Assembly: GCA_015179045.1 (NCBI GenBank) | Contig: WHUZ01000116.1 | Location: 91,039 to 155,038 of the forward strand | Length of the DNA stretch: 64,000 nt | Reading direction: 5' to 3' | Source: Kalaharituber pfeilii | Taxonomy: Eukaryota > Ascomycota > Pezizomycetes > Pezizales > Pezizaceae | In this document: positions 4,563-51,556 of the stretch, piece after piece | How the letters are laid out: each line of letters opens with the position of its first letter | How positions within the stretch are numbered: the first letter of the stretch is position 1 | The notes under the pieces: model-generated | What the model saw: only the letters and a program-made list of their open reading frames with translations | The model's database searches: none | Told to the model about the DNA's origin: nothing | Position numbers and translations under genes: made by a program

Positions 4563-6073
4563 CGGGATGACTCCGGACAAGTACTTTTTACCTGTCCGCT
4601 CAGGGACAGGTAGTTCCTTGTACGGTAAGCGGATCGCCAGTGGCGTGCGCTAATATGCAGAAGTTTTCAAGGGTTACGATTCAGAGGTACCTAAGCTAAG
4701 ATATTCTGTACAATACCTGAACTTCTAAATAGGTGCAGTGGAAGATACATGGGATCTTGATGCAACAAGAATAATATCCTGCATAGCTTGCGTATCCTCC
4801 TCAAGCTCAACTACTGTACACCTGAGGAGCCTTCCCTATAGTATTTCTTGCAGCAGCTGTTCATTCAGCCAACTCAGCAGAGGTCATCGCATGCGCTCTA
4901 GCTTTTCCCTTGGTTTTTTTCTAACGAAATTGATTTAAAGCTGGTGGTACAAATTGCTGGATAATTGGCTGAGCACCATGACTAGCAGGTGTGCTGGTGA
5001 ACATTCGTTGCATGTGGCTGGTATGAGTATGCTACAAACATGTAAAAAGCTTTGCCTTCTCACCGTTTTTTTTTTTTTTTTTCTATATCATTGATCGCTT
5101 ACCACCCATGGGGCTATGGCAATGCCTTCTCACCAGTAAGGATACCATATAACTGTTCTTGGTCATATAATGATTGTAGAAGGAGATGTCAGCCTTGATT
5201 AGTATATTGGTCCTGTGGCTGCTGTTGAGGTATTGTAATAGGTAGATCTGTAGGTACTTCTCTGCCGGTCATTGTCTATTTTATGGGTGCTATTGGACAT
5301 TTGATTTGCCAGTGTGGATGGAGAAGCTGAAGAGGAATCTGTTGATTTCCATAAACCACAACTACAAATCCAGTAACTAATGCATAGTCTTGCAGACAAT
5401 GTAATACATCATTAATAAAAGCGTACTGCTCTTCAGTAATTGGAGTACTTCAATAAAATTCAGGAATATCATATCTATCACCCATATTGCCTATTTAGGT
5501 ATCGAAAGATTTGCATAGGAGATAGGTATTGCTAAGAAGACTAAGACCGAGATGATAGGTAATGCTAAATGTTAGGTAATGCTGAGTGAGAGTGGGCATG
5601 GCAAGCTATTGAATAAGCAGAAAATATATGCCAGAACAGTTTTCAAGAGCCTTATATACTATTAAAGCTCTTCAGCCAAGTATTTACAAAATTGCGGTAA
5701 CAGCTTTTTTTTACTATTATTCAGCCATTTACTATAGTAGGACGCAGCAACAACACAAGTACATAATAAATGGTCTGTATTTCTGGTAGACTTAATGGAT
5801 GTATGGCCAACTTCGGAGGTAGTGGCAGTTGGCTTTGTTGAAAGATCACACGTCCTGGCTATCAAGTGGTAACTAGTAAATGATTCCGCGACAGCAGAGG
5901 CGAAAGAGAAAAGCTGCGAGTGAGTAGCAACCAATATCTTTGATATACATGAAGTTGTACTTGGGTATGATACTGTACATGCGAGCTCGCCACCCTTGAA
6001 AACTCTGCATATTAGCGCACGCCACTGGCGATCCGCTTACCGTACAAGGAACTACCTGTCCCGAGTCATCCCG
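4563..6073. mobile_element. MULE-like non-autonomous DNA transposon
   Basis: The termini are inverted: CGGGATGACTCCGGACAAG on the left, and the complement of the right end reads CGGGATGACTCGGGACAGG. The inversion continues for about 75 bp (TAGTTCCTTGTACGGTAAGC, then GGATCGCCAGTGGCGTGCGC). The left arm carries an extra local duplication of about 37 bp. Nine-base target repeats CTACGTGAT flank it (4554-4562, 6074-6082). Long inverted repeats with 9-bp duplications are the mark of Mutator-like elements. No transposase is recognisable inside; only short ORFs are present, and a B stub lies at 5065-5122. Confidence 0.75.
5065..5122 (-). mobile_element. Family-B stub insertion, 58 bp
   Basis: Poly(T) is followed by the B tail only, ending at the base of the tail hairpin. 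Perfect TSDs TGCCTTCTCACC lie at 5053-5064 and 5123-5134. It sits inside the MULE-like element. Confidence 0.9.
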
Positions 6074-11570: not shown

Positions 11571-11606
<36 letters not shown>

Positions 11607-11690
11607 CACATAACCCCACTTGTAGCACTTGGCCATGGCAGGGTTTTTTTTTTTATCATTGATCGCGTGCCGCCCTATGGGCTATGGCGA
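11551..11690 (-). mobile_element. Cluster of LINE tails: poly(T), C stub, B stub
   Basis: Two long T tracts (11551-11570, 11573-11603) precede a tail-C stub (11604-11643). Another T tract (11644-11654) and a tail-B stub (11655-11690) follow. At least two, perhaps three, insertions have used the same place, each entering beside the T tract of an older one. Confidence 0.8.
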
Positions 11691-11699
11691 TATATTACT

Positions 11700-12358: not shown

Positions 12359-12372
12359 TCTACGTTTACAAT

Positions 12373-12430
12373 TTTTTTTTTTTTTGTTTTAATATCATTA
12401 CTCGCGTGCCGCCCTGTGGGCTATGGCGAG
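12373..12430 (-). mobile_element. Family-B stub insertion, 58 bp
   Basis: Perfect 14-bp TSDs TCTACGTTTACAAT lie at 12359-12372 and 12431-12444. Between them are a T-rich tract and tail B only. The element's 5' end is exactly CTCGCC, the first base of the tail hairpin. Confidence 0.95.
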
Positions 12431-12444
12431 TCTACGTTTACAAT

Positions 12445-13390
12445 GTACCGGTAAGGTCGTCCGCTTGGGTACCCATCACAATGATGGATCCAGAGAGGGC
12501 GTGTCCTTGGCTGTATAACACGTATTGGTTCGCTCATACTCCATTGGGCTGTTAAAAGTGTGCTGACCACAGATCAACAGGTATGCATACGGCTGCGACG
12601 AGCTAGTTTTCGATCTCATGCACATCTGGCTTTGGTAAAGTCCTTTCAGCAAGCTATTCAACTGATTCTTGACATGCAATGGTCCTTTATGTTCCAAGAT
12701 CTAGAGTCTGGGATACATCTTCTCCTACAGTACTATGCGATAACTTCTGCGCTGCGCTGCCGCTCTCCACGCCGAACTACTTCCAGGTTTGTTGGCGTAA
12801 TGGCTATTACGACAAGTTTTGTCATGGAGTATGGAGGCCTTCCTTTCAATTGTGGTTGTCTGCAGTTTGGCAGTATGGATAATGTTCATGCCTCAATGAA
12901 CATTATGACGCTAATGTGCATCATCAGGGTAACATCTACCTTGCTATTCTTCGATATCATTTGGGAAAGAAGAGTCTTATTGGCGCTCTAATCGAGAATT
13001 TCAAATGGCTCCCCTTCTTCGTCATCCTCCTCTGTGGCTTTCCTCACCTCGAGCGCGCAGTTCTCGCCCACATGCTTTCTATCAACATGACCCTGGCGCA
13101 GCGGCGAAGGAGTTCAAGACATTTAACTTCTTCAAAGAGGTCCCCAAGATTGGTAATCCTTCAGATGGATGCATCTCATCTTGCTAATTCTCTACGGGGT
13201 CATGATCTAACTTGCCCAATTTGCGCCCTCAGACTGGAGAATTAACGCATTTGCGCCCGTTGTGCCGCTCGCAACCTGCACTGCCTACCAATTCATTGCT
13301 TCCTGTAAGTTCTAGGCAGGCCTTGTCTCCTCTGCATTACACAGGCAGTGAACTAATACATTACAATTTTCATACTTTGCATTGAACCCA
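12445..13390. other. Unannotated region with a possible small coding exon
   Basis: A plus ORF at 13005-13187 (ATG to TAA, 60 codons) begins MAPLLRHPPLWLSSPRARSS. It is arginine-rich without early acidic residues, like a mitochondrial presequence, and continues DPGAAAKEFKTFNFFKEVPK. I do not recognise the family. It could be the first exon or a relic of a mitochondrial protein gene. Overlapping ORFs at 12560-12991 and 12916-13245 lack motifs. Confidence 0.25.
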
Positions 13391-13392
13391 CC

Positions 13393-13485
13393 TCTTTTTT
13401 TTTTTTTTTTTTTTTTTGGAGAGTCACGTAACCCCGCATTCAAGCTACCAGCCTATGGCCGGGACCCATGTACCTGGGCCAGGTT
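13393..13485 (-). mobile_element. Tail-A short insertion
   Basis: A poly(T) of about 23 is followed by the complement of tail A (GCGGGGTTACGTGA, AGGCTGGTAGCTT hairpin) and about 35 bp of 3' UTR. TSDs were not resolved. Confidence 0.75.
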
Positions 13486-13925
13486 AAGGAACTACGTATG
13501 ATATCTACCATCTCCATGTGCGATGAGCTTCAATCACTAACCTTACAGATTCCTTTTATATCATTGCTGTCATTTCTTTTGTTTTTCTTTCTTTTTGTTT
13601 TGGTAATTGTTTCTGGTTGTGCTGTCTTTCTTAGAGCTCCATTTTGTTTCTTAAACCTTATTTCCTCTCGTTCCTGTTTGTTCTGCTCTATCTCTGATCC
13701 ACATTTTCGATCTGTTCTTTGCTAATGATTCGCGTTTCGTACGACCCTCACATGCGGTCATTTATTCTGCTACTACTTGATCATGTACATTTCTTTTTGT
13801 ATAACTCTCTGTTATCATCGTGTCATTGCTTGTATATCAACATAAATACTAAAACACCAGGGGTTATCAGCAGGGGTACGGGCTAGGGAACAGCGCCAGT
13901 TTTTTGAATTGAATAATCAAGAGGT

Positions 13926-13986
13926 TTTTTTTTTTTTTTTTAATTTCACGTGACCCCGCTTGTAGCTGTTCGCCATGGCAGGGCCC
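13926..13986 (-). mobile_element. Family-C stub insertion, 61 bp
   Basis: Perfect 14-bp TSDs AATAATCAAGAGGT lie at 13912-13925 and 13987-14000. The insert is poly(T) plus tail C, starting (sense) GGGCCCTGCCATGG. Confidence 0.95.
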
Positions 13987-14000
13987 AATAATCAAGAGGT

Positions 14001-14920
14001 AAACACAGGAATTACTACGACTCCATTTGTGCATCCTCCATTAGCAGGATTTTCGGCAGCCATACGTCTAGGCATGCTTTTCTAGACAATAAGAAAAGTA
14101 TCTGCACTCAGCGAGTCCCACTCCAGCTTCCTACAGCACACGGACCACTTCACTACCCCTGCCGGCAACCCCTGGTGTGCCGGTATTTATGCTGCATTAC
14201 AAGTATACCTTTTCTCCACATTGGGGAAAGTATGAAGGATCAGCTGGTGGGTTCGTGACATTGTTCGTGAAAATGGATGAGCAAGGGTGGAGTTTGACTG
14301 CATCTGTTATGGCCTCCCCGCAAACTCTCCTTGTTAAAAACTACATTGGAAGCGGCTCATTTAATCGAGCTCCCTTGATTGGGATGGCTTGGCAGTTGCA
14401 ACTACTGATGATAAACTACAGCAGGGGAAATTATGGGCCGCAAAAGCACTGCTGAAATAATTGTATGCAAGGATCTAGGTGGGGGAAGAGGTCTTGAATA
14501 CCACCGCATGATAAGGCAGCACAGGATGGATAATATGGTGGAGTGCAGCTCGAAGGGACCACTTACAACCACCACGTTTGAAGACCTTCTACATTACCAA
14601 ACCACACCTTATTGAAACCTGAAGGACATTAATATGTAGTATTTTGTCTGCTCTGCAATTCTATGTCCCCTACTTAGAATGGAGTGAGTGAAAGCAGATT
14701 GAAATACAAGTACTTTGTATGGGACAGCAGGAAAATGCAACCTGCCAAGAACGCTAAATCAGTACTAGTACAGGTGGATTTACTCTATCTGGAAATGATC
14801 TACATATTCCTTTGTCACAACCATCTTGATATGCGTACTAGTACATAATAAGTAAACATCTATACAAAATGATTCATTGTGATCTGAGAAAAAGACTCAA
14901 GACTATGTACATGGAATTGT
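14001..14920. other. No gene identified
   Basis: Plus ORFs 14177-14455 (92 codons, FSPHWGKYEGSAGGFVTLFV) and 14433-14615 show no known motif. They may be a decayed gene or transposon relic. Confidence 0.3.
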
Positions 14921-14923
14921 CAA

Positions 14924-15010
14924 TTATAATGCTTCAAAGTTATACTCACAATTATTGTGAGTATAGCATTTTGCAGCTGCCCAAAAAAATTCATTAAAGT
15001 TGAGCTCACA
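14924..15010 (-). pseudogene. DDE transposase C-terminal relic
   Basis: The minus frame has LNFNEFFWAAAKCYTHNNC followed by EYNFEAL. It matches the relic at 57065-57175 (FWCAAKYYARENCRYNF). It resembles the C-terminal signature of fungal Tc1-like DDE endonucleases, LNPIE-FWG-K-Y-R. Only about 30 residues survive. Just beyond, 15116-15190 holds a decayed tail-A-like sequence (AGCTGGGAGCCTGTATGCAG, A-rich end) in plus orientation. Confidence 0.55.
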
Positions 15011-15538
15011 ATAAAAACAATGATAGAATAAAACAATGATAGAATAATACCGAATGCCCATGAGCTCCAGGTTGTCGAAGATGAGATACCAATGTGCGAG
15101 TATTGCGACCGAGGCCAGAAAGCCAGCTGGGAGCCTGTATGCAGGATTCCCCCTCCCCCCTACACACACAAAAAAAACAAAAAACAAAAGGTGTATTAGT
15201 CGGCGCGCGACGGAATGTAACAAGTCGTCCACACTTATAAATAGTGGTAATCAGTTATGCGTTTCGTAACTGTTACGTGTGGTAACATGACATAAGCAGA
15301 GGCTCTGATTGGCTGATTTCGTTATGAAAAGACAGGGATTTCCCTCACGCAGACAACGCAGACAACATAGCGATTTGGCAAAGTGATCACAATAACTCTG
15401 CGCAAGGATACAGGTATGCAACCGATTTTCAGCTAACCACAGCGTTATGTAATGAGTTCTTTAACCTAAAACAGTAATTTTTGGACAGATTGTGCATATG
15501 CATAATGCGTATTGAATCTACCAGCATACCCAATCTAC

Positions 15539-15616
15539 TTTTTTTTTTTTATTTTTTTTTTTTTATTTCATTACTCGCGTACCGCCCTGTGGGCTATGGC
15601 GAGGTTATTTTAGGTA
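15539..15616 (-). mobile_element. Family-B short insertion
   Basis: Perfect 14-bp TSDs CATACCCAATCTAC lie at 15525-15538 and 15617-15630. The insert is a T-rich tract, tail B and 15-20 bp of 3' UTR. Confidence 0.92.
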
Positions 15617-15632
15617 CATACCCAATCTACAC

Positions 15633-16797
15633 GTTAAAGCTCTGGGTAGGGACTATGAGATCAAGCATAAGCAGGTCCTCTAACACCTCATAATCATCAG
15701 AATCAGAATCAAGTAACATAGAGTCTCGATATCAGTCGTGGCCACCTGGGCCTTTTCTGACGTATCATAGGCGGCATGGTGATTGTTACGGATGTGACGA
15801 TATGCAAAGGGTAAGATTAGTAACTTGGGGAAATCAGCTGCTTTCCTCTCATTTAGGCTTAGTTGAAGGACATGGGTTAGCTAACGCAATGCAACGTAAC
15901 GCTTAACTGGTTACAATAATTTCTGTTCTTATCTGTGGCGTAAGTGATCAACGATGACAAGGTCCATGCAGCGCTAGTGGGGCCGGAATTGGTGGGTCTC
16001 AAATTCGCCATTGTGCACGACCCTGTAAGTGCAGACATGCTGCGAGTGACTTTCTGTCAACCCCAAAATCCCAAGCAAAGGAATCAGAGGCATCGATATT
16101 GATCTCTGATAAAGGCGCCTGCGCAGGGGGGTTTTTCTCGCCTAAGATCCCTGGATGGGGTAATGGGGTAATGGCCTTCTGCTGTGTCTACGTACCCCCA
16201 CTGTGAGTGGTACGAACTGTCTGACAGCGCAGCTGTGCACTGCATGGTGCTGGGTTTGCAGTGTAGATGATTGCTTTTTTCGCTCTGTCTTATCCAGGTG
16301 TTCATGAAGCTGTACTGCTCATTGACTTTCTAGCGAGACAACTTTCGAACTAAGTACAAGGTCGGCGGCATTATGCAAAAGGGACAAGGTATCGATAATT
16401 TGCTGTTCCGGAATTAGGTGGTCCCAATCTCCGAGTAACTTAGTTGTCTCCGTAAGCGAACGAGAGGAAGAGGAGCTCGCCTGATAGCCTTGATTTGCGT
16501 ACAAGGGAATATTTATAACAAAATAACTGAGTCTCTTATTTCGGACTCTCCAGAATACTCTCTAATCGTATGCAATAAAAGCAGGCAATAACGGAGTTCC
16601 CTGGTGATTGTAAAGAGTTATGTATAATATTTACGTTTCTGTCATTTGTGAATGAACCTTCTCTTGCTGGACATTCAATATGCCTGATGTCAAGTAAATG
16701 ATTGTGCGTAATGATATCCCAGCTTCTAGAGTGTGTTACGTTATACCACGGCTGCAGAACATTATAACATGGGATAGCATTGGCTGTAGTTGCTGAA
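15633..16797. other. Possible decayed gene on the minus strand
   Basis: Two minus ORFs lie in a row: 16319-16504 (ILLGDWDHLIPEQ-like helical text, no ATG at its start) and 16084-16305 (MNTWIRQSEKSNH). No known domain was found. The region otherwise shows no structure. Confidence 0.25.
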
Positions 16798-16811
16798 TAA
16801 TCATGAGGACT

Positions 16812-16870
16812 TCTTTTTTTTTAAAAAAATTTCACGTGACCCCGCATGCGACTCTTCGCCATGGCAGGGC
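16812..16870 (-). mobile_element. Family-C stub insertion
   Basis: TSDs AATCATGAGGACT (16799-16811) and AATCATGGGGACT (16871-16883) differ at one base. The insert is a T-rich tract plus tail C; its sense 5' end is GCCCTGCC. Confidence 0.88.
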
Positions 16871-17209
16871 AATCATGGGGACTAACTTCAGTTCTCACCT
16901 ACCACAGGCCTTTCAGCCTCTGCCCCGGTGTTCACCGGATGCAGGTGACCATTGAAGCCAATCAACGGAAAGATATTGCAGATGGGATGCGTATTGAGTA
17001 TGGTATCATAGAGGAAGAAAAAACCAAAGAAGCAGGCAGATAGGGCTGTGGAGGATGCAATGGGCACTGATCAAGAACCCATTGTGTGTAAGTATAGTTG
17101 GTCCACGGTCTGCAATTTTTCACCTGCAGCCATGGTGCAGTCATGTAGGTACATATGTTGTATGGAGATCTAGACCACAATCTGGTGTCACAGACATTCC
17201 TCCCGGTAG

Positions 17210-17268
17210 CAAAGGGGTCATACCATAGGCAAAGAGTCTCCATGCGGAGTTACGTTACCCCCCCCCCC

Positions 17269-17300
<32 letters not shown>

Positions 17301-17312
17301 AAGAATAAAACA
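17210..17312 (+). mobile_element. Decayed LINE tail (A-like) with poly(A)
   Basis: GGGTCATACCATAGGC...ATGCGGAGTTACGTTA followed by a C run and about 24 A resembles tail A with substitutions. No TSD was resolved. Confidence 0.5.
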
Positions 17313-17764
17313 AAAAAAACGGAAAGGCATTAATCAGGTGGTTAGCTGTTGGTCGAACTGATGGTGTGGCGGTTTGCTGGCCAAGCTTTCTGGGCAAGTA
17401 GAGTAGGCCGACCAAAAAGCCGCATTGATAAATTAAATTAGACCTCTCAGTATCATTATTATTGAGAAATCCCTTTTCAATACCATCAATGCTAATTTAG
17501 CAATACAGTGTCTGATAAAATAGTCCCATAGACTATTCTAGTTAGAAAAGCGCCCACCCCCAAATTGACGCGTTTTCAGTACCATCAATTGCAGCGAACA
17601 GATTCTGTGCCGTCTAAACGAACGTTTCAAATATGTTACGGACTCACCGCAACCGTAGGGCAGGCAGTCGGTGGATGTGCGGGTACAATTTACCCATATG
17701 CAAACACATGCGATATGCTGCGGCAAACAAGTCGAAGTCGCAAAACGTGTGCGGTAGGAAAATA

Positions 17765-18454
17765 CTAATAATATTAGTATTAAATAAGTATCAAATATAT
17801 CTTTACTAGTATAAAAAAAATTTATTTTTCTAAATATTAAGTTTTATTTGAAGTATATAGTACTATTAGGTAAAAAAACTTTTTACTAACTAAAATTATA
17901 TATTATAAGTTAAAAAATTAATTTAATTATATAATTATATTTAATTAAAAATTAAATTCTATAAATATATATTCTTAAATTTATTTTTATACTTTTTAAT
18001 ATTTCAATTAAAATATACAAAAAAAATATTAAAAAATTTTAAAAACTAAAAATATTAAATATTAGAAAAATAATAATAGTATAAAATAAAAAAGTATTAT
18101 ATATAAAAAAAATTTTATAAAAATTTAATTTAAATATAATATTAAAATTAATACTTTTTAAAATAAAAATATAGATTTAGTTTTTTTTTAAATTATAATT
18201 AAAATATAAATTAATTTTATAATAATTATATTATATATTTATAATTTTTTTTTAATATTTGTAATAAAATACTTAAAGTATATTATATTATTTTAATATA
18301 TTTAATTAAATAAATTATAAATAATAAATTAAACTTAAATTAGAATTTAAATTCTAAAAGTTTAAAAGTAGTTAAGTTATTAAATATTAGTAAAGTATAA
18401 AAAGTTAATAGTATATAGTTATATAAATAAAAATATTTATTAAAGCTAAATTAT
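17765..18454. repeat. AT-rich block, RIP-like
   Basis: Almost all bases are A or T for about 690 bp, with isolated G and C. No coding frame remains. It continues at 19476-19920 beyond an inserted LTR. Such blocks in ascomycetes commonly come from repeat-induced C-to-T mutation of old transposons; that origin is inferred. Confidence 0.7.
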
Positions 18455-18872
18455 TGTCACGCGGCGGCAAGCTGGTGCTGCTAAGGGATACGACCGGTTC
18501 AGGGTAACAGTAGTTTTGCAAGCGCTGAATGGCAGAGGTCTGACAAACTTGACAGGAGAGGCTTGACAGGAGTAGTTCAGAGGTTCCAGTTCAACGGCGA
18601 TGGCAGGCTATGGTGAAAAGGCAGAGAAGACCAAGTACTGAATTGGATCTAGAGATTGACGAGAATAACAAGAACATATAGACTGCGAGGAACCATATGG
18701 GTCTATTAAGAAGACAAGACAACAGACAAGGAGAGAAGGAACTATTTACATGAGGGCAAGATAGAGCCTATATATACATGATAGGTTCATTACCTGAGAA
18801 GCATAATACAAAGGTAGAAGCAGCGACGAGGGCAGAAGTAAGAACAGAGTGGTGAAGGCAGAGTTTTCATGG

Positions 18873-19287
18873 CAGGCGGGCGATACTGGCAGGCGGCGAT
18901 ACTAGCAGGCGGGCTGTACTGGCAGGCGGGCTATACTAGCAGGCGGGCTGTACTGGCAGGCGGGCTATACTAGCAGGCTGGTCGTACTGGCAGGCAGGCT
19001 ATACTAGCAGGCGGACTAAACTAGTAGGCGGGCTGTACTGGCAGGCGGGCTATACTGGCAGGCGGGCTGTACTGGCAGGCGGGCTATACTAGCAGGCTGG
19101 TCGTACTGGCAGGCAGGCTATACTAGCAGGCGGACTAAACTAGTAGGCGGGCTGTACTGGCAGGCGGGCTATACTGGCAGGCGGGCTGTACTGGCAGGCG
19201 GGCTATACTGGCAGGTGGACTATACTGGCAGGCGGGCTATACTGGCAGGCGGGCTGTACTGGCAGGCGGGCTATACTGGCAGGTTGC
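18873..19287. repeat. 17-bp minisatellite with 119-bp higher-order period
   Basis: About 24 head-to-tail units of GGCAGGCGGGCTATACT and variants occur. Seven-unit blocks repeat: the variant AGCAGGCTGGTCGTACT starts at 18972 and again at 19091, 119 bp apart. The array lies inside the LTR. Confidence 0.92.
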
Positions 19288-19330
19288 TAGCTACATGTAG
19301 CTAGCCGGTTCTATGAGCTTGCCGGCTGTT

Positions 19331-19435
19331 GGCAGGAGGCGGTCACGGCTTGCCGGCGGTCGTGGCTTGCCGGCGGTCGTAGCTTGCCGGTGGTCATGGC
19401 TTGCCGGCGGTCGTGGCTTGCCGGCGGCCGTGGCT
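19331..19435. repeat. Second 17-bp minisatellite
   Basis: About six units of GGCTTGCCGGCGGTCGT with point variants lie in tandem. The period equals that of the neighbouring array though the sequence differs. Confidence 0.88.
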
Positions 19436-19475
19436 TGATGTGCGGAGACTGTAGGGCGTGGGCTGTGACAATTAT

Positions 19476-19920
19476 AATTAAAAAAAAATTTAAGTTATTA
19501 TTATAAATAGTTTAAAAGAATATAAATAAATATTTTTTATAAGAAAAGTTCTTTTAAAATTAGTTTTTTTAGTAATAGTTTTTTTTTTAAAAAAAAAAAT
19601 AAAAAGTAATAAATATAATTAAAACTTAATTAAAATATTAAAAACAAGTAAGTAATAATTTTAAAAATTTATTTTTTACTAATAAAAATTTTTTTATTAT
19701 AAAATTTAGTTTAAATTTTATATAAATTCTTAGAAAAAGATATTTAATAGTTATTATTTTTTTAAAGTAATTTAATTTATTAGATATAATATTAGTAATT
19801 TACTTATAAATAAAATTTTCTAGTTTTATTTATATTTAAAGTTTACTTATATATATATATATTTTTATATTTCTATTATATAATTAAGTAATTCTTAGTC
19901 TTCTAGCTAATACTTAAGTA
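19476..19920. repeat. AT-rich block, RIP-like (continuation)
   Basis: Same composition as 17765-18454; only scattered G or C bases remain. Confidence 0.65.
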
Positions 19921-19930
19921 TACTAAAAGC

Positions 19931-19983
19931 TCTGCCATGGCGAATAGCTGCAAGCGGGGTCACGTGGAAAAAAAAAAAAAAAA
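19931..19983 (+). mobile_element. Family-C stub insertion
   Basis: Tail C (TCTGCCATGGCGAATAGCTG, then GCGGGGTCACGTGG) with poly(A). Possible diverged TSDs are AGTATACTAAAAG and AGCATACCAAAAA. Confidence 0.75.
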
Positions 19984-20841
19984 GCATACCAAAAATATGC
20001 TAGTTTATGCCAGAAACTGCATAGCGCATAAATTCCCTGTCCAAATACTTATCTTCTGGTCTAGGCAGTACTACTCTAGTATTGTGGAAGCGTGTGATGA
20101 CTAGTACCCCCAGGGTTGTCGGCTAGCAAGTCACACTCAACTTCATTTGGCGGAGCGCATACCCAAACTGCTGACAGCGAATCCAGCCGCAAGGTACCTC
20201 AAACCTAGTACGAGCATGTAGAAATCTTGACTATGGTACCAGTTGCAATATGACAATTTAGTCGGCGTCGGAACCTTCCGCTGAATGAAAAATTTCTTTT
20301 CGTTTGTTCTAATTTGAGAAGTGTTGTAAAAAAGCCACAAGCTCTTTTGTGGGCCAACACATGACATGGATTCCATTTAGGTTTAGCCACAGCCCGCCAC
20401 GAGGCTGTCATTGAACGAGACCCTGAAGCACAGCATTTTTTGCTCTCTCTCCAAAAAGAATGTAAAAAGAAGACAGGACAAATGAAATAAAAAATGAATA
20501 CCACATGCTGTGGGGCTATGAGAGATGGAGCATGTGGTCCACTTCCATCGGTTCTTTTGCACAGACACCAGCTTGGGAGCTCTGTCTTTGCTTGATTGTG
20601 AATCTGCATACAAACAACGCACACGCCCATATTTAGATATTATGAACCTCTTAACCCAGAACACGGCTCCCCAACTTCGTGTTCAGCCCAAAGTTATCGC
20701 AATCCAGATACTTGTGCAGATTATGGGGTATTTATTGGCATGTGCAAGTATAAACCCAATGTTCTTAATGTCTATAGGCTAGTCTCGTAGTATAGCTGGA
20801 CTACCACCCTCTTTAATTTTGTACTGTCATCATAGATCACT
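19984..20841. other. No gene identified
   Basis: Overlapping minus ORFs at 20143-20664 show no recognised domain or splice arrangement. Confidence 0.35.
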
Positions 20842-20893
20842 TTTATTATTTATTATCACGTAACCCCGCTTGCAGCTATTCGCCATGGCAGGG
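20842..20893 (-). mobile_element. Family-C stub insertion
   Basis: A T/A-rich start is followed by the complement of tail C, ending at GGCAGGG(C). Imperfect TSDs are CATAGATCACT (20831-20841) and CATGGATCAGT (20894-20904). The tract is already mutated, so it is an older insertion. Confidence 0.75.
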
Positions 20894-20947
20894 CATGGAT
20901 CAGTGCGATAGTTAACGCTGGCGCACTAAGAGAGGACAGGGCTGAGC

Positions 20948-20955
20948 TATATAAA
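20948..20955 (+). promoter_or_regulatory. TATA box for the 21076 gene
   Basis: TATATAAA lies 128 bp upstream of the ATG at 21076, a plausible core promoter spacing for a fungal gene with a short 5' UTR. Confidence 0.5.
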
Positions 20956-21075
20956 CCATTCGATTCCTCCCAGTAACAATTCTTTAATACCATCGACCAA
21001 GGCAAACTTACAAGATCAAGCTCTTTACCGGATCTCAACTCTCCTCTAATATAGCTCCGCACTATATCATCTAAA

Positions 21076-22247
21076 ATGAAGTCATTTTCGCTCCTTGCTT
21101 TAGCTATTTCCGCCGGCGTGGCCTTTGCGGCTCCAAGACCTATACCCTTTGCTCAAGACCTAGCAGATACTGTTGAGCTCGTTGAGACTCAGCCTGGTTC
21201 CACAGGCCCAACTGGACCCCCAGTGGGAATTGACGGTGTGTAATTATCTGATCACAAACGCTTCCATGAATGAGAATGTTTCATATATTAATTATCATGG
21301 CCGTTTCGCGCGAATCCAGCTCCACCACCACTGGCCCCATCGGAGTCTGAGATCATCGCAGATGCAAATGACAATTTTGTCACAAATGCAGACTCTGACG
21401 TGAAGGTCAAGAAGCGTGCACTCCCTCCAGCAGGATACTATACAGTTTTTGAAGGTTTGAGTGGTGCTACTCAACATCCTTCTTACATCACCTTCAAAAG
21501 TTTTCCCACATATGATCCGGTCGCTTGTACCAATTTCTGTAACTCCATTGCTGGCTGGTAAGTAAGGATAAACGACAATGGTGACAATTCCAATACGTTA
21601 CCTGACCTTTCTTACGACAGTGTTTTTGCCAACCTCTATATAGAGCATGTTGACGCTCAGGCACCGTGAAGATCAAGTGCTCGGTGTACAGCCAACCTTC
21701 ATCAGCATCCGCTGCTACCAATGAAGGTCAATGGCGCAATGGTTTAGAGTGTTTATCACCGACTCGAATGGATACTCTAAGAAAATAAACCCCGAGATTG
21801 CAGGCTGGAATGAAGAGGAGCTCAACGCGGCTATCAATGGCAAGAGGGCGAACCCCACTGACCCAGACCCATATATGGGCATGACCACCATCGAGGCTGT
21901 GAGTATTCCTATAACGATAATTTCTCACCCAAGCTACTCGCTAACACCTAGTTTACTGCTTAGGCAAACCCTCACTTTGCAAGGATCTCTGTGAGCAAAA
22001 GACCGCTTATAACTCTCGCCACCCTACAGACGGGAAATACCGCGCTTGCAACTTCTTCAACTTCTACCTCTTGTTCAAGAACGGTGAGGGTTACAAAACC
22101 GTCTGCTCCTTCTATATTATTCCATTCAATTCTAGCTATGCCACAAACACCGGCTATACCTCCAGTGGTAACGTTTACACTGTCCACGACTCATGGTCCT
22201 TCACTAGGGAACAGCTCCTTGGTGAAGGTGGCATTGTCACCATCTAA
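21076..22247 (+). pseudogene. Secreted cysteine-rich fungal protein gene, two frameshifts
   Basis: The ATG opens a signal peptide (MKSFSLLALAISAGVAFAAP, cleaved near AFA-AP). Exons are separated by introns at 21236-21319, about 21559-21620 (GTAAGT...ACAG) and about 21900-21964 (GTGAGT...TTAG). After a KVKKRAL dibasic stretch come two similar cysteine modules. The first has GYYTVFEGL, TYDPVACTNFCNSIAGC and VFANLYIEHV, then KIKCSVYSQP and TNEGQWRNG. The second has CKDLCEQKTAYNSRHPTDGK, YRACNFFNFYLLFKNGEGYK, TVCSFYIIPFNSSYATNTGY and ends EGGIVTI-stop. This doubled, apple/PAN-like cysteine layout occurs in secreted proteins of filamentous ascomycetes; function is unknown. Frames break near 21655 and near 21745. 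Either the gene is dying or the sequence has two single-base errors. Confidence 0.75.
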
Positions 22248-22636
22248 ATTTGCTTTTGAGATTATCCATTTGTGCGGGGAGGTGATGTAAAGGGCAAGGA
22301 AAAAACTGCTTGGAAAGCATTGGGTATGGTGATCATATATTGAATGTAATCCGGGAATTGGTGTTGGTTGTGTAAGTATTAACGTAGGTTGGTTTGGGTC
22401 ATGCGACAATGCGATTGTTGTGAAGGTCGGAATGGGCTCTTTGGGAAACCTTTCTCAGTCTTAAATTTCATGATTGTTCTACAATTTGTTTCAGTTCCTT
22501 GCTATGTAACTTATATGAATCAATATTGCGCATTCAGGGATTCTCATCATTTATTTTAATTGTGACAAGATGTGCCAAAATAACTCCATTGGAGAAGATC
22601 TGAATAACGGATACATTAGAGGGATTATTTCGCTGG
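22248..22636. other. 3' flank, no gene seen
   Basis: This is the downstream sequence of the secreted-protein gene. A/T-rich; no feature stands out. Confidence 0.4.
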
Positions 22637-22800
22637 CACCAGGTATGGTTTCCAGGGATCATCAGGGACGACTGCGCCACATGCTAGAGAATCGTACGGA
22701 AGGAATTTCATCACTGGGACTGGATTTCTAGGGCTGGATCCCTGGCAACGACCGCTTTTTGAGCCTCATCTATCTTCACCAGTGCTTAGTCAATTTTCAT
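22637..22800. repeat. Copy of the 4220-type dispersed repeat
   Basis: CACCAGGTATGG...CAGGGATCATCAGGGA...GCGCCACATGCTAGA and GGATCCCTGG parallel 4240-4400 in order and orientation. It is diverged. Confidence 0.5.
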
Positions 22801-22810
22801 TCTGAAAGCT

Positions 22811-22866
22811 GGCCCTGCCATGGCGAACAGCTGCACGCGGGGTCATGTGACAAAAAAAAAAATTTT
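22811..22866 (+). mobile_element. Family-C stub insertion, 56 bp
   Basis: Perfect TSDs TTCTGAAAGCT lie at 22800-22810 and 22867-22877. The insert begins GGCCCTGCCATGG and ends in poly(A) plus T. Confidence 0.88.
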
Positions 22867-23130
22867 TTCTGAAAGCTGATATCGAGTCAGCGAACTGATT
22901 CGTACGGTAAACCAAAAATCAGGCAGTGTCTGAAGGCAGCGTTGAGAATGTTGAGAAGTGATACACATAGTTCAAAGGTGCTCCATTTTCATGGGAGCAA
23001 ATGCCAACACTACGGCCTGTACTGCCTACAGTTACACCAGTTACCAGTCCAAATTGGTAGTAGTAGTCATAGCACATCTGCAGTTATGACTTAGTAAGGT
23101 TTGGATTGAGTGTTGCTATCTTGAAGTCTT

Positions 23131-23195
23131 TTTTTTTTTATTTTTTCTTTTTTAATCAAATAACCCCACTTGCAGCTGTTTGCCATGGCAGGGCA
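23131..23195 (-). mobile_element. Family-C stub insertion
   Basis: A T-rich tract is followed by the complement of tail C, with sense 5' end GCCCTGCC. Only a short GAAGT/AAAGT flank match is visible as TSD. Confidence 0.75.
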
Positions 23196-23214
23196 AAAGT
23201 AAGGAAAGTGAGAT

Positions 23215-23272
23215 CGCCATAGCCCATAGGGCGGCACGCGAGTAATGATAAAAAAAAAAAAAAAAAAAAAGC
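23215..23272 (+). mobile_element. Family-B stub insertion, 58 bp
   Basis: Perfect TSDs AAAGTGAGAT lie at 23205-23214 and 23273-23282. The insert starts CGCCATAGCCC and ends in poly(A). Confidence 0.93.
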
Positions 23273-23304
23273 AAAGTGAGATAGGTTAGCGGCTGGGCAC
23301 GAAG

Positions 23305-23432
23305 GGGCAGTATTCCTGATGCAGCAAAAACTCAAATGCATTTTTTTTGCTATTCCCAGGGTTGTGCCACATGTTAAGGGCTTTATCCCTGATAAATCCC
23401 TGGCACTAGCAAAATCCCTCTATTATTACTCG
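23305..23432. repeat. Copy of the 4220-type dispersed repeat
   Basis: TGATGCAGCAAAAACTCAA...GGGTTGTGCCACATG...ATCCCTGATAAATCCC parallels 6590-6700. Confidence 0.5.
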
Positions 23433-23717
23433 AGTACGTATGCTGTTTACGTAGAGACTCCTATTAGAGACTCCTATAATGTCTGGCGATGACATTGGGG
23501 ACATTCAGATTGTAAGATATTTGCAGGGAAACTGTCCAAGTGGTAAATTGCGAATAACTACACGACAAGTTTAGTTAGATGTCTTGTATATTTATAATAT
23601 CGCGGGTACCTCTGTATGGTACTAATACATTAAGGCGGAGGTTTAGTGCTAGGCCTGCAATTCTCAAGGACATTCCTTCATGTATGTACTCACCGGCAAT
23701 GCTCGTAGTATGTATCT

Positions 23718-23775
23718 TTTTTTTTTTTTTTTTTTTGTCACGTGACCCCGCGTGCAGCTGTTCGCCATGGCAGGG
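23718..23775 (-). mobile_element. Family-C stub insertion, 58 bp
   Basis: Perfect 14-bp TSDs CGTAGTATGTATCT lie at 23704-23717 and 23776-23789. Poly(T) and tail C only; sense 5' end CCCTGCC. Confidence 0.96.
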
Positions 23776-23799
23776 CGTAGTATGTATCTGACGGACATC

Positions 23800-24370
23800 A
23801 GGAGTACTCAGAATGGGATGTTTCAAAAAAAAATGCCGTGCGAAAATTCGCATACTTGACGATGTAAATCCGTGTTCTGAAACTGCACACATAAACACGT
23901 ATTCGAGGGGGGAAACTGTAAACGTGGATTTCCGGGTCAAATATCCACGGAAATTGGCAATTTCACCTGCGATCTGAACTTATATTCGATCAAATACCAT
24001 ACAAGCATAGGGGCTCTCTCCCCCCCAAAAAAGAGCGTCTTTGGAAGGGCGGAAAATACTCAAAAGAACAAAACAAACTCTCAAAACAAACTGACCCTGC
24101 TGTAGGTCATGCCCACCCTCGAGAATGTACGCATATAGAGTACGATGTAACGATTTACATTACACTCGGTGAAATTGGCAATTTCGATGCCCACAAGGCA
24201 TCATGGGGACCAGACACCACCCACGTTTGATGCAAATAGGTATTGGAAATGCGCGAATATGTTTTCGCATCGAAACGCCTACCCCTATGTACATTGTCAT
24301 ATTCCTATGGCAAAAGGACTCAAGTTCATATTCAATCGAGCACGTGTAGCTATTTTTTGGAAATACAGTA
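23800..24370. other. No gene identified
   Basis: AAATTGGCAATTTC occurs twice (about 23950 and 24171). No coding frame is recognised. Confidence 0.35.
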
Positions 24371-24409
24371 TCACGTAACCCCGCTTATCGCTATTCGCTA
24401 TGGCAGGGC
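24371..24409 (-). mobile_element. Tail-C stub without poly(T)
   Basis: The complement of tail C (TCACGTAACCCCGCTTATCG to GGCAGGGC) stops at the usual 5' point, but no T tract remains. It is an old or A-tail-less copy; TSDs are not visible. Confidence 0.65.
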
Positions 24410-24581
24410 ATGAGTAGCGATAGGATATAGCCTACCAAACCTAAATTGTGTAATCCAATTTGAGAAACTAGAGTCTCATGCCTAAGCCCCTAGACTTCAG
24501 GAATTGAACATGTTCGCGGCCAGTCATCTTGGCTGGGCCACTTAGAAATGGCCCGATTAGATGGCTGACCCCGAACAAACA

Positions 24582-25466
24582 TTGTAAGATAGACAGATAG
24601 TATCCACTACTGCCTTGCGATGGACCGGAGTGGTGAGAACTGGCGGAACGAAAGTACGACCAAGTGAGAGTGCGAGTGCAAAAGTGCGGGTGCGAAAAGA
24701 AGAGAAGAGAAGGTTGTTGATTGTATGTGCTACAGAACAGAAAGTCTATATATTTGATATGTACGTGCTGCCCTTATCTCCACGTGCCTTCCATGCCAAG
24801 CTTGCCTTTGACCCATTCCGTCCATCACCTCTGTTGGATGGTTCCAATTTTTGCGGGCGGAAACTCACAGTTTAGTTTCGTGCGAAATGATCCTAGCGAA
24901 ACGTAGAAATAATTTGGTTGCCATAGTTTCCACTTGAAATCTCGGCTATACAGTATGTGGTCAACCAACAGGACTTTACTTTTAAGCTCTGTTGTGGGGA
25001 CGAGACGGAATGGGTAAAGGCAAGCTTGTCATGGAAGGCACGTGGAGATAAGGGCAGCACGTGAGGCGTTTCACCGATATCATATGTATATTGAAGAAAT
25101 ATAGAGAATTATGTAGCAGACTTCGTATAGTATTCAATGAGCAATATGTGCTCCTAACATCAACCTATTTATAGACATGAGCTGCTAGAAAATTGTGCGA
25201 GTATTAAGGTTGCTCATTCTCACAACACGTATCCACAACATAGATTCCTCATCACATGGAATAACCTTATACCATAATCTCGGTTCATAATCTCGGTTCA
25301 TAGTCTCGGTTCTTGTGTGTCGCATAATCTTCAACATATATAGACTTTCTCTTCTCTTCTTTTTGCACCCGCACTATCGCACTCGCAGTCGCACTTGGTC
25401 GTACCTTCTTTCCGCCAATTCTCACCGCTCCGGTCCATCGCAAGGCAGTAGTGGATATCTTACAGT
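24582..25466. mobile_element. Inverted pair of LTR-like sequences
   Basis: TGTAAGATA...TATCCACTACTGCCTTGCG at the left is inverted at the right end (CGCAAGGCAGTAGTGGATAT, CTTACA). A second inverted block CGTGCTGCCCTTATCTCCAC (24766) recurs inverted near 25045-25070. The right arm is longer, with a TATAAATAGG-like promoter motif read on the minus strand (about 25170) and three GAACCGAGATTATG-like repeats. TG...CA borders suggest two LTR copies facing each other, the left with an internal deletion. No gene is present. Confidence 0.6.
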
Positions 25467-25636
25467 GAGTATAGCCATATATCATTTCGCTTGCTATAGC
25501 AAACTGCATCACGCTATAGCATTGCATCATGACATTGACATTGCATTGCACCACTATTATGGCAGAACTCAACCCTCACATTACCCTCACTCTGGACCTA
25601 TTATTGGCAATTGGAATAGAAATAATAGATTACATT

Positions 25637-25669
25637 CGCCATAGCCTATAGGGCGGCACGCGATTAATG

Positions 25670-25698
<29 letters not shown>
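25637..25698 (+). mobile_element. Family-B stub insertion, 62 bp
   Basis: TSDs ATAGATTACAT lie at 25626-25636 and 25699-25709. The insert starts TCGCCATAGCC and ends in about 29 A. Confidence 0.93.
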
Positions 25699-25701
<3 letters not shown>

Positions 25702-25709
25702 GATTACAT

Positions 25710-26186
25710 GCTGTCATTGTACAACACAAATCCTATGCGGACATCAGCATTGCCAGGAAATGTGTACTTACAGGAGGTCTATTTTTCAGCAAACCCGCGG
25801 CATCCTTTATAAGAGCGGGAGGGTATGCGAGGGCTGCTTTATCACGGTGAAGGCTAAATTACGAAGGGAAGATGTAGAGATACCGTTAAGTCTATTGATC
25901 TAAGAGACGCAAGAGCAGCAGGTTTATATACATGAGAAAGTATAGCATAACGTGACTTGGGAACCATAACTGAATAGGGAAATATATCAAATCAGGAAGG
26001 TGAGAAAGACACGGAGTGCGTGGCTTCCAAAGTAAAACGCCGTTGCGCAAGCTACACAAAAGTTGGCGTTGTGGCGTGATTCATATACAGTCCAGTAGTG
26101 AGACTGTGAGACTAAATGCATATGATTGGAACGAAAAGATAAAATGAAAGGGTAGCAGCAACAGGTGGCAACGGATGTAATGTTCC
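25710..26186. other. No gene seen
   Basis: Sequence between two B insertions. No ORF with recognisable content was found. Confidence 0.4.
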
Positions 26187-26200
26187 GACATCCTTTGGAA

Positions 26201-26598
26201 CGGAGTTGCTTTGAGAAAAGACTTAAGCAAGGTCCGGAAATGGCTGGAGGCCGACAACAAGGACATAGGTAAGACGGTAGGGATTCGATGGTTGAGAAAG
26301 AAGACTCTGCTGGTTGACGAAGGCAAGAAGACCAGCTCGGTGGCCGTATACGTGGAAAACATATTCGAGGGTGGGAGAGTGAGACTGGGAGGACGTTGGC
26401 TGAGGACGGACCAGTATGAACGGGACAGAGGACGGAAGTAGGAAAGGCATACAGGTCCAAAACCCGCATCACGCATGTACACCGCAGGCAGCACATGTAC
26501 TTAGTTATTCTTCTTTCCTTTCTTTTTCTGAAATAAAACCTCGCCATAGCCCATAGGGCGGCATGCGAGTATTGATATTAAAAAAAAAAAAAAAAAAA
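26201..26598 (+). mobile_element. Family-B ORF1-only element, intact reading frame
   Basis: A 398-bp insert with perfect 14-bp TSDs GACATCCTTTGGAA (26187-26200, 26599-26612). It contains an open frame (ATG at 26211 to TAG at 26441, 76 codons). The frame reads MRKDLSKVRKWLEADNK, GIRWLRKKTLLVDEGKKTSS and VRLGGRWLRTDQYERDRGRK-stop. This is the RRM-like C-terminal piece of LINE ORF1. A 3' UTR, tail B and poly(A) follow. Its 5' end nearly coincides with that of the 4421-6365 copy, so it looks like a defined unit rather than a random truncation. Whether the peptide is made is unknown. Confidence 0.9.
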
Positions 26599-26663
26599 GA
26601 CATCCTTTGGAAGGTCCACTTTGCTCGTAGTTCTGACATTTTGAGGAGGCTGATTGAGTGCTA

Positions 26664-26664
<1 letters not shown>

Positions 26665-26694
<30 letters not shown>

Positions 26695-26878
26695 CATTGT
26701 TCGAGTGCCGCCCTATGGGCTATGGCGAATTTTACGTCCATTGTGAAGGAAATTGAGAAAGGTGAAACAGTGAAGTAATTTTTTTTTTTTTTTTTTTTAT
26801 ATATCAGTACTCGCATGCCGCCCTGAGGGGAAATAGTGAAGTAAGAAAGTCCCCCTTTTTCCCATCAAGTGGAAAGTA
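26665..26878 (-). mobile_element. Family-B insertion containing a second B stub
   Basis: Perfect 13-bp TSDs GATTGAGTGCTAT lie at 26652-26664 and 26879-26891. The insert has about 28 T, tail B to about 26730, then 3' UTR-like sequence interrupted at 26779-26834. Confidence 0.9.
26779..26834 (-). mobile_element. Family-B stub, 56 bp, nested
   Basis: TSDs AGTGAAGTAA lie at 26769-26778 and 26835-26844. Only the 3' half of tail B (CCCTCAGGGCGGCATGCGAG in sense) and poly(T) are present; this is the shortest copy. Confidence 0.9.
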
Positions 26879-47569: not shown

Positions 47570-48786
47570 TTTTCTTTTCTTTTCTTTTCTTTTTCTTTTT
47601 TTTTTTTTATTTTCACGTAACCCCGCTTGCAGCTGTTCGCCATGGCAGGGTCCCTGCAATGAGGCGGCAGACGTCAAGGCGAAGAGAGCGGCGGACAAGA
47701 TAGGAAGGTCAGTGGTGACCGAAGGGGCGCTGCAGCAGAAGTGGAGGAGACTGCGCGCAGCGGAGAGAAGGGAGCCAGGCTTCGGAGGGGGTGTGGTGAT
47801 GGGGTGGAGCAGGGGAGCAGCTACCACCTTCACAAGACTGAGAACGAGGAAGGGGATGGGTAAGGAGTGGGAAGTGAAAATAGGGAAAGCGGCGGAGGGG
47901 AGCGTGTGGAGGTGCAGGCAGAAACAAACGGCGGACCACCTGGCATTCAGGTGTGAAGAGGTGATATATCCGGAAGGCTGGGGAGGAGTGGCTGGATATA
48001 GACAGAAGGAAGTGGGTGGAGCGGCAGGAGAACGGGGAGGAAGTCGACATGCTGGAGGAGTTTTTTAGGGCGCTGAGAACATGAAAAGGGGATGGGGCGT
48101 TATTTCGTTTGTTCGAAGGTGGCGGCGGAGGCTTGATGTAGTTATTTTTAGTGCCACGGGGAGGCGTGGCGGAGAGGGGGTGAGATTTTCGTTTGTAGAG
48201 GAGGCGGTGGAAGGGTAGTTAGATAAGCCTGCCTCCGGGCTTTGAGGGTTGAGACCCAGGGGCCCTGCCATGGCGAATAGCCGCATGCGGGGTCATGTGA
48301 TATTTAAAAAAAAAAAAAAAAAAAAAAATGGCAGGGTCCCTAGACTGAAGTCCTTATGGCCCAGAGACAGGCACCTGTGCAACTACCTACAAAATCGCCC
48401 CCTGTAAAGGCACACAACAATACCACGACTTCGGTGATGCAGAGGAAACACAAAGCGAAAGCCCAATCCTCCAAGAGATCAATCAAGCACAAATACCCAA
48501 ATATCCCCCAGAAAATCAAGCAGTCATGTCCATCTCCTCCACATCCCTCCCCTTCCCCTTTCTGTCCACCTTTGTATCTATCCCAGTCATACAGGCACGA
48601 ATCGTACCACTTGCCTGACAACCTTACCTTCGCTGGTGTTTGGCTATCCGATTCCACCTCCCTCTCCAGGAAGATAACAACCGAGCTAGCCTTCTTTCCC
48701 TCCCTCCTCTCTTTCGTCACCAACCATCTTGCCGCAACAATCTTTCCCATCCCTGGATTCCCATTCTCCATCCAATCTCTTACCTT
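47570..48786 (-). mobile_element. Family-C ORF1-only element, interrupted
   Basis: Fourteen-base TSDs AAGGACAATCGACC (47556-47569) and AAGGACAATTGACC (48787-48800) differ at one base. In minus orientation: T/C-rich tail, tail C, then (after a nested LINE-C at 47656-48327) a 3' region and an ORF1 C-terminal frame. The frame reads KVRDWMENGNPGMGKIVAAR, WLVTKERREGKKASSVVIFL and VRLSGKWYDSCLYDWDR. This is homologous to the family-B ORF1 piece and begins at the same aligned codon. No ORF2. Confidence 0.85.
47656..48327 (+). mobile_element. LINE-C 3' end with ORF2 C-terminus
   Basis: Perfect 14-bp TSDs ATGGCAGGGTCCCT lie at 47642-47655 and 48328-48341. The frame encodes NEAADVKAKRAADKIGRS (end of RNase H), a basic stretch, and a zinc knuckle (CRQKQTADHLAFRC). 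It ends near 48068, followed by a 3' UTR, tail C (GGGCCCTGCCATGGCGAATA) and 22 A. It entered an antisense family-C element within that element's own tail C. Confidence 0.92.
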
Positions 48787-49446: not shown

Positions 49447-49516
49447 ATATCCTGCTATAGCGAACAGCTGCAAGCAGGATTACGTGAAATAAAAAAAATA
49501 AAAATAAAAATAAAAA
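49447..49516 (+). mobile_element. Family-C stub insertion with C-to-T changes
   Basis: TSDs ACATCTAACT lie at 49437-49446 and 49517-49526. The tail reads ATCCTGCTATAGCGAACAGC...GCAGGATTACGTGA with an A-rich tail containing T. Against tail C it shows C-to-T and G-to-A changes. Confidence 0.85.
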
Positions 49517-51239: not shown

Positions 51240-51556
51240 ACAAAGACGTACTGGCAGACATTCTAAATTGGGCTGGACAATAACAGCCAGACTGATACTC
51301 ACTCCCTCGCCATAGCCCTTAGGGCGGCATGCGAGTATTGATATATAAAAAAAAAAAAAAAAAAATGACCCTCACTAATTTTGCTTCTCATTCGTCATTT
51401 ATATTCTATTTCATATTCGGAAGGGGTGAAGCCGGGGAGAAGATCAAATTATTCTGCATCTATCTCGTAATTTTGGATTTCCTTATTTCGTATTTTGTAT
51501 CTAACCTCGCCATAACCTTTAGGGCGGCATGCGAGTACTGATATAAAAAAAAAAAA
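51240..51556 (+). mobile_element. Family-B insertion containing a nested B stub
   Basis: TSDs AATGTAGATGAGA (51227-51239) and AATATAGATGAGA (51557-51569) differ at one base. Plus orientation; tail B at about 51505-51545 and poly(A). Interrupted at 51311-51364. Confidence 0.8.
51305..51364 (+). mobile_element. Family-B stub, nested
   Basis: CTCGCCATAGCCCTTAGGGC to GCGAGTATTGATAT and poly(A). Possible TSDs are TGATACTCACT and TGACCCTCACT. Confidence 0.8.

Follow-up and report, generated by a model that had tools for sequence, protein, structure and literature searches.

Hairpin-poly(A) insertions of LINE origin that start at the foot of the terminal stem in Kalaharituber pfeilii

Stubs in the window

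The window is the whole stretch of 64,000 nucleotides of Kalaharituber pfeilii DNA that was analysed (C20:91039-155038 of a 78.03-Mb assembly in 360 contigs), and the elements in question are minis, or stubs, which consist only of the 3'-terminal hairpin of a long interspersed nuclear element (LINE) and poly(A). Two tails were followed, tail C (RCCCTGCCATGGCNNNNNGCTRCAWGCGGGGTYAYGTGA-An) and tail B ([C/A]TCGCCATAGCCNNNNNGGCGGCAYGCGA[G/T]TAATGATA-An), both given on the sense strand, and their cores matched the window 14 and 7 times, against 0.25 and 0.00 matches expected by chance. The eight tail-C and four tail-B stubs named in the original prediction were all present (12 of 12) as hairpin plus A-tail, and their 5' ends fell on the first stem base, with GG, TTT or AT in front of it in three tail-C stubs. 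The statement that most of them have target site duplications (TSDs) held for nine of the twelve, where the repeat is at least 10 bp long with up to 2 mismatches, but not for those at 20856-20894, 23156-23194 and 24371-24409. The coordinates below give the hairpin portion of each copy.

13946..13984, minus strand: tail-C mini; TSD ACCTCTTGATTATT; GG precedes the first stem base
16832..16870, minus strand: tail-C mini; TSD of 13 bp with 1 mismatch; start exact
20856..20894, minus strand: tail-C mini; start exact; TSD uncalled, by eye a repeat of 8 bp with 1 mismatch
22812..22850, plus strand: tail-C mini; TSD of 16 bp with 2 mismatches; start exact
23156..23194, minus strand: tail-C mini; TSD of 7 bp; TTT precedes the first stem base
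23738..23776, minus strand: tail-C mini; TSD of 14 bp, one base common to TSD and hairpin
24371..24409, minus strand: tail-C mini; start from sequence match only; no TSD called
49449..49487, plus strand: tail-C mini with diverged hairpin; TSD ACATCTAACT; AT precedes the first stem base
19929..19967, plus strand: likely tail-C mini, absent from the original prediction; exact start and, by eye but not by script, a TSD of about 12 bp with 2 mismatches
11606..11644, minus strand: likely tail-C mini directly behind the A-run of a tail-B copy; hairpin begins after 10 A, and a TSD cannot be called inside the A-run
5086..5123, minus strand: tail-B mini; TSD GGTGAGAAGGCA, one base common to TSD and hairpin
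12393..12430, minus strand: tail-B mini; TSD ATTGTAAACGTAGA; start exact at CTCGCC
23213..23250, plus strand: tail-B mini; TSD of 14 bp with 1 mismatch, two bases common to TSD and hairpin
25635..25672, plus strand: tail-B mini; TSD AATAGATTACAT, one base common to TSD and hairpin
51306..51343, plus strand: probable mini of tail B; TSD uncalled, the flanks forming an imperfect repeat by eye
48262..48300, plus strand: for comparison, hairpin of tail C in a longer LINE 3' copy, with homology that extends more than 180 nt upstream
26540..26577, plus strand: for comparison, hairpin of tail B in a longer LINE 3' copy, with homology that extends about 290 nt upstream

A tail-B copy followed by an A-run and then directly by a tail-C copy in the same orientation was seen at window positions 11606-11691 and also in the places L044 and L066, and these tandems would have arisen either when a copy inserted into an A-run or when the enzyme jumped from one RNA template to the next. 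Proteins of the window matched DDE_1 and NPHP3_N, with a SesA match below the cut-off, and from its sequence the host looks fungal.

5' ends of tail-C and tail-B copies

Genome-wide, the tail-C core CAWGCGGGGTYAYGTGA had 2855 exact matches and the tail-B core AGGGCGGCAYGCGANTAMTGATA had 4863 with up to 1 mismatch, while reversed-pattern controls for the cores gave 0 matches across the genome. The last tail-B letters plus A-tail were found at 1758 places and, with nine further upstream letters, at 935, a difference in which mutated and truncated copies are mixed. Among the places listed on contig C1 (2.99 Mb), the first 0.55 Mb held 19 of 21 tail-B and 31 of 39 tail-C copies, a crowding that suggests repeat-rich compartments in the genome. 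Endpoint rows were taken from samples of the genome plus the window and were chosen by the 3' core only, so that all longer 5' ends are visible, and inserts shorter than the search core are invisible to the counts. For tail C, 48 places of the TCACG class (L001-L008, L039-L058, L167-L186) and 20 each of the TTATG and TTACG classes (L067-L106) were used; after removal of rows with identical flanks, too little flank or variant cores 95 rows were kept, some long TTATG copies being lost with the identical flanks. The best-scoring reverse transcriptase (RT) loci, L009-L038, were rejected as LINEs on a motif that we take to be Ty3/gypsy-like and were left out of the endpoint counts.

A TSD was called in 62 of the 95 pooled tail-C rows, three of these calls being false (nested copies). 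The TSD-supported ends lay 21-28 nt upstream of the core in 47 rows (38 at 21-23 nt and 9 at 24-28 nt), where the density at 61-300 nt leads one to expect 0.13; the others were at 18-20 nt (3), 55-60 nt (5), 61-300 nt (4) and 0-17 nt (3, the nested copies), and no row of the 95 ended at 29-54 nt. Among the 33 rows without a TSD call, 25 run on into LINE sequence by a loose test, one of these 25, L170, being mini-like by eye. The ends at 0-17 nt in L089, L090 and L180 were rejected as truncations, as they look like nested insertions. By eye, the minis in L089, L090, L123 and L180 seem to be nested in copies of the same hairpin, their TSDs being hairpin sequence, and L089 and L090 appear to be duplicates of one locus.

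The start was then resolved in 70 TSD-backed tail-C minis within 16-33 nt, a range fixed after the peak had been seen; the table includes the set that was picked because the exact LINE word next to the hairpin is absent. A single template position, the opening base of the 7-bp stem, fits 65 of the 70: 36 are exact, 13 more become so when bases common to element and TSD are counted as element, and 16 have 1-6 untemplated bases before that nucleotide. Three others have G or GG, possibly templated, and two fall short by 1 and 3 nt (L200 and L106). The untemplated bases are pyrimidines in 28 of 33 letters on the sense strand, and hence purines in the cDNA. These minis have inserts of 49-87 nt (median 63) and TSDs of 8-18 bp (median 13). 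Exceptions in the whole tail-C set are L044, which ends inside the hairpin, L048, a mixed B/C copy, and L184, which by eye ends 3 nt before GCGGGG. Near position 266 of L048 the tail-C 3' end is fused to apparent LINE-B upstream sequence at a common CGCCAT, a junction that looks like the product of a template switch. In addition, five rows (L007, L008, L057, L077, L173) form a second fixed class, whose start lies about 37 nt further out than that of the minis and no more than a base from AAGCC, where pairing begins in an upstream hairpin, H1; the module of H1 and a second small hairpin, H2, has 291 genome matches with up to 3 mismatches.

Tail B has the same peak, weaker and on a broad distribution. 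In 57 unselected rows (39 rows from 40 genome places, and 18 from the window) 7 ends were at the hairpin base, against 0.4 expected from the broad background, 6 inside the hairpin at 8-13 nt, 2 at 28-40 nt and 15 at 41-300 nt, and 27 rows had no TSD. A further 38 places, picked for the lack of an exact AGGGCGGCA, had their ends at the base in 9 cases and at 0-18 nt in 8, among the latter one nested copy and one with an internal deletion; 2 ends each fell at 28-40 nt and at 101-300 nt, and the TSD was uncalled in 17. The sampled genome-wide copies thus had a peak in their 5' ends for both tails, above expectation in each case, and not a smooth, peakless spread, in agreement with the non-random endpoint that had been predicted. 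The description of that end as nearly fixed is accurate for tail C but not for tail B, and the AAGCC class, the inner ends of tail B and its broad longer background were absent from the earlier description.

LINE parents and the terminal hairpin

Tail C or tail B was found in sense in seven of eight fetched LINE 3' regions. In L059-L062 and L065 a TTATG-class tail-C hairpin lies 120-150 nt past the end of the longest frame, L063, which is decayed, has a midi-type tail C, and L066 has tail B and then a tail-C copy; the 3' region of L064 had neither tail C nor tail B. Open frames of 1248 and 1151 codons in L207 (L207:272-4015) and L208 (L208:385-3837) encode endonuclease, RT and RNase H domains, and the best-matching solved chains for L207 include L1 and R2 proteins. 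Tad1 is the clade name usual for LINEs of fungi. The minis have a TSD, a 3' A-tail and the same 3' end as a LINE with endonuclease and RT, as insertions of non-LTR (without long terminal repeats) elements do. The LINE origin that had been proposed for the stubs is borne out by these 3' regions, and the TSDs mark them as complete insertions.

Both tails fold into an outer stem (7 bp in tail C, 5 bp in tail B), an internal loop and an inner stem, and the minis of both begin at the first base of the outer stem, the hairpin base named in the original prediction. A third tail, A, folds alike, so that three tails have the same architecture. At window positions 42746-42780 there is a tail-A stub with a 9-bp TSD (CTTCTCTTG) and a start a few bases from the hairpin foot; a third LINE type may make minis too. 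In tail B the outer and inner pairs covary: across 87 rows the outer pair is C-G in 53 and A-T in 21 and is canonical in 79, compared with 48.8 in shuffles (maximum 62); both sides had changed in 24 rows for the outer pairs and in 7 for the inner pairs. Folding energy alone is weak evidence, because shuffle z-scores over ten folds ranged from -0.49 to -2.95. No Rfam model matched the window at gathering thresholds, and the idea of a known RNA or self-cleaving ribozyme was dropped for that reason.

Origin and meaning of the short insertions

Taken as a whole, the sequence evidence somewhat favours the view that the stubs are complete, LINE-made insertions of hairpin and poly(A) for which a short piece of LINE RNA served as template and was reverse-transcribed as far as its 5' end. 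Cleavage or trimming would reduce a LINE transcript to the hairpin and its poly(A); the simplest route would be 5'-to-3' decay coming to a halt at the stem, and ORF2 protein bound to the remaining fragment would perhaps guard it. Such an RNA would hold everything that target-primed reverse transcription needs, and it would be copied to its very 5' end, sometimes with untemplated purines added, and then joined to the target. We infer a short template from the single-base precision of the start, the untemplated purines of the cDNA and the direction of approach: at a stem RT should be arrested on the 3' side, but a 5'-to-3' nuclease on the 5' side. The two causes offered in the original prediction fare differently. 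A stop of RT brought about by the hairpin is a poor fit: RT comes from the 3' side, and by then the hairpin is fully copied. A discrete short polyadenylated template would agree better with the precision and the purines. Passages of PMC11789487 report that R2 RT prefers purines in untemplated additions after copying a template, and according to PMC11014359 human L1 retrotransposition falls when XRN1 is lost, a finding that speaks neither for nor against a short template.

Several observations weigh against this interpretation. The paired columns of tail C hardly vary, so that covariation says little there, and in longer context RNAfold adds an extra outer pair to tail C (G-U or G-C), with which the minis start one base inside the stem. 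When tail B is folded with its own LINE upstream sequence the minimum-energy fold differs and the hairpin is the centroid only. The small hairpin H2 lies between the two fixed tail-C starts, in the 29-54 nt interval where none of the 95 rows ends. A nuclease that halts at the stem does not explain why some tail-B copies end within the hairpin, 6 of the 57 unselected rows at 8-13 nt and others at 0-6 nt. Furthermore, the CTTAGTG LINE subfamily had five longer copies and no mini in the samples.

The main rival, and a serious one, is a possibility to which we give appreciable but clearly lesser credence: the template would be full-length LINE RNA, and RT would copy the terminal hairpin, in doing so lose the contact by which ORF2 protein grips the RNA, and leave at the 5' foot. 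Release at other stem borders would then yield the second tail-C class and the inner ends of tail B, which also lie at stem borders, and full-length LINE RNA requires no processing step. In addition, passages of PMC4176376 describe stringent LINE proteins that bind their own 3' stem-loop. The one-base precision and the untemplated purines, however, resemble run-off at a template end, and the templated positions beyond the foot show no smear, the 29-54 nt interval being empty. Stalling of RT is expected on the 3' side of a stem, which also argues against release at its foot.

That the minis are an independent family resembling short interspersed nuclear elements (SINEs), with transcribed source copies of its own and moved by LINE enzymes in trans, is improbable. 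Word counts along the LINE end (730, 741, 742) cannot be set against each other, since words lying upstream match a wider set of subfamilies, and they were replaced by a place-by-place join of hairpin and upstream word. For the exact hairpin CCCTGCCATGGCCAMGTGCTACAAGCGGGG, the first 100 copies listed comprised 48 with the exact adjoining upstream word and 52 without it, and the first 26 of the latter were 22 minis, 3 longer copies with one change and 1 uncalled in a tandem repeat, which would put minis at about 44% of these copies (extrapolated from the 26 of 52 inspected). Of 20 fetched places of this young subfamily without the exact adjoining LINE word, 18 were minis that all begin at the same position, one was a longer copy whose adjoining word is changed, and one, in a tandem repeat, was uncalled. 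Both young variants, CCAAGTG and CCACGTG, are present in long LINE copies as well as in minis. CTTGG-GCAT hairpins lean more towards a separate family, since 84 of the first 100 listed lack the upstream word and all seven fetched are minis, but the other 16 do have it (matched by eye). Minis also dominate the TCACG class, where the sole LINE copy found near an RT domain (L063) is decayed, and this class may contain a mini-only lineage. In the subfamilies compared, diagnostic bases are common to minis and longer copies, so the minis look LINE-made and not like a separate SINE, and the pattern across the variants favours production from LINE RNA. By inspection against the consensus, the 39-nt unit has no B-box-like word of Pol III promoters and therefore no room for an internal promoter. 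Ordinary random 5' truncation, with a peak due to chance or to recognition of whole hairpins only, would accommodate the broad tail-B background, the ends inside the hairpin (L147, L157, L159 and L184, by eye) and the inserts too short to be seen, and is very improbable given the excess of both peaks over expectation.

LINE truncation, LINE 3' stem-loops and LINE-tailed SINEs are already known. As in the 5'-truncated LINE copies treated in parts of the review PMC2881922, the minis have a LINE 3' end, A-tail and TSD and have lost the 5' part, but here a large fraction has a single start nucleotide in common and keeps nothing but the terminal hairpin. With stringent LINEs such as ZfL2 and UnaL2 they share a family-typical terminal 3' stem-loop, here a predicted one; inserts of the stem-loop only are not described in the passages of PMC4176376 concerned. 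SINEs that share a LINE tail are likewise short, non-coding and moved by LINE enzymes with a LINE 3' end, whereas the minis have no head region and no recognisable internal promoter. Mammalian 3'-truncated small nuclear RNA (snRNA) pseudogenes, as presented in passages of PMC4476161, also have TSDs and truncation points grouped by RNA secondary structure, but there the 3' ends of host snRNAs vary and an A-tail is not needed, and here it is the 5' end of LINE RNA that is set. A regular class of stem-loop plus A-tail alone with an exact start was not found in a limited search of open-licence literature.

When LINE copies lack 5' sequence, reverse transcription that ended early is usually held responsible. 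Here, numerous natural inserts that share an exact endpoint separate two answers, a short template and programmed release, and with the start nucleotide named the minis make the cause of LINE shortening testable. About 39 nt plus an A-tail may be near the least RNA that supports target-primed insertion, and repeat annotation as commonly done probably overlooks such short inserts. Whether several LINE families of one genome routinely make discrete RNAs, one kind of about 40 nt and another of about 78 nt (A-tail not counted), that are complete retrotransposition templates seems to us evenly balanced. If they do, these would be the smallest regular class of retroposon known to us, and hairpin-poly(A) inserts would be a genomic record of where LINE RNA decay halts.

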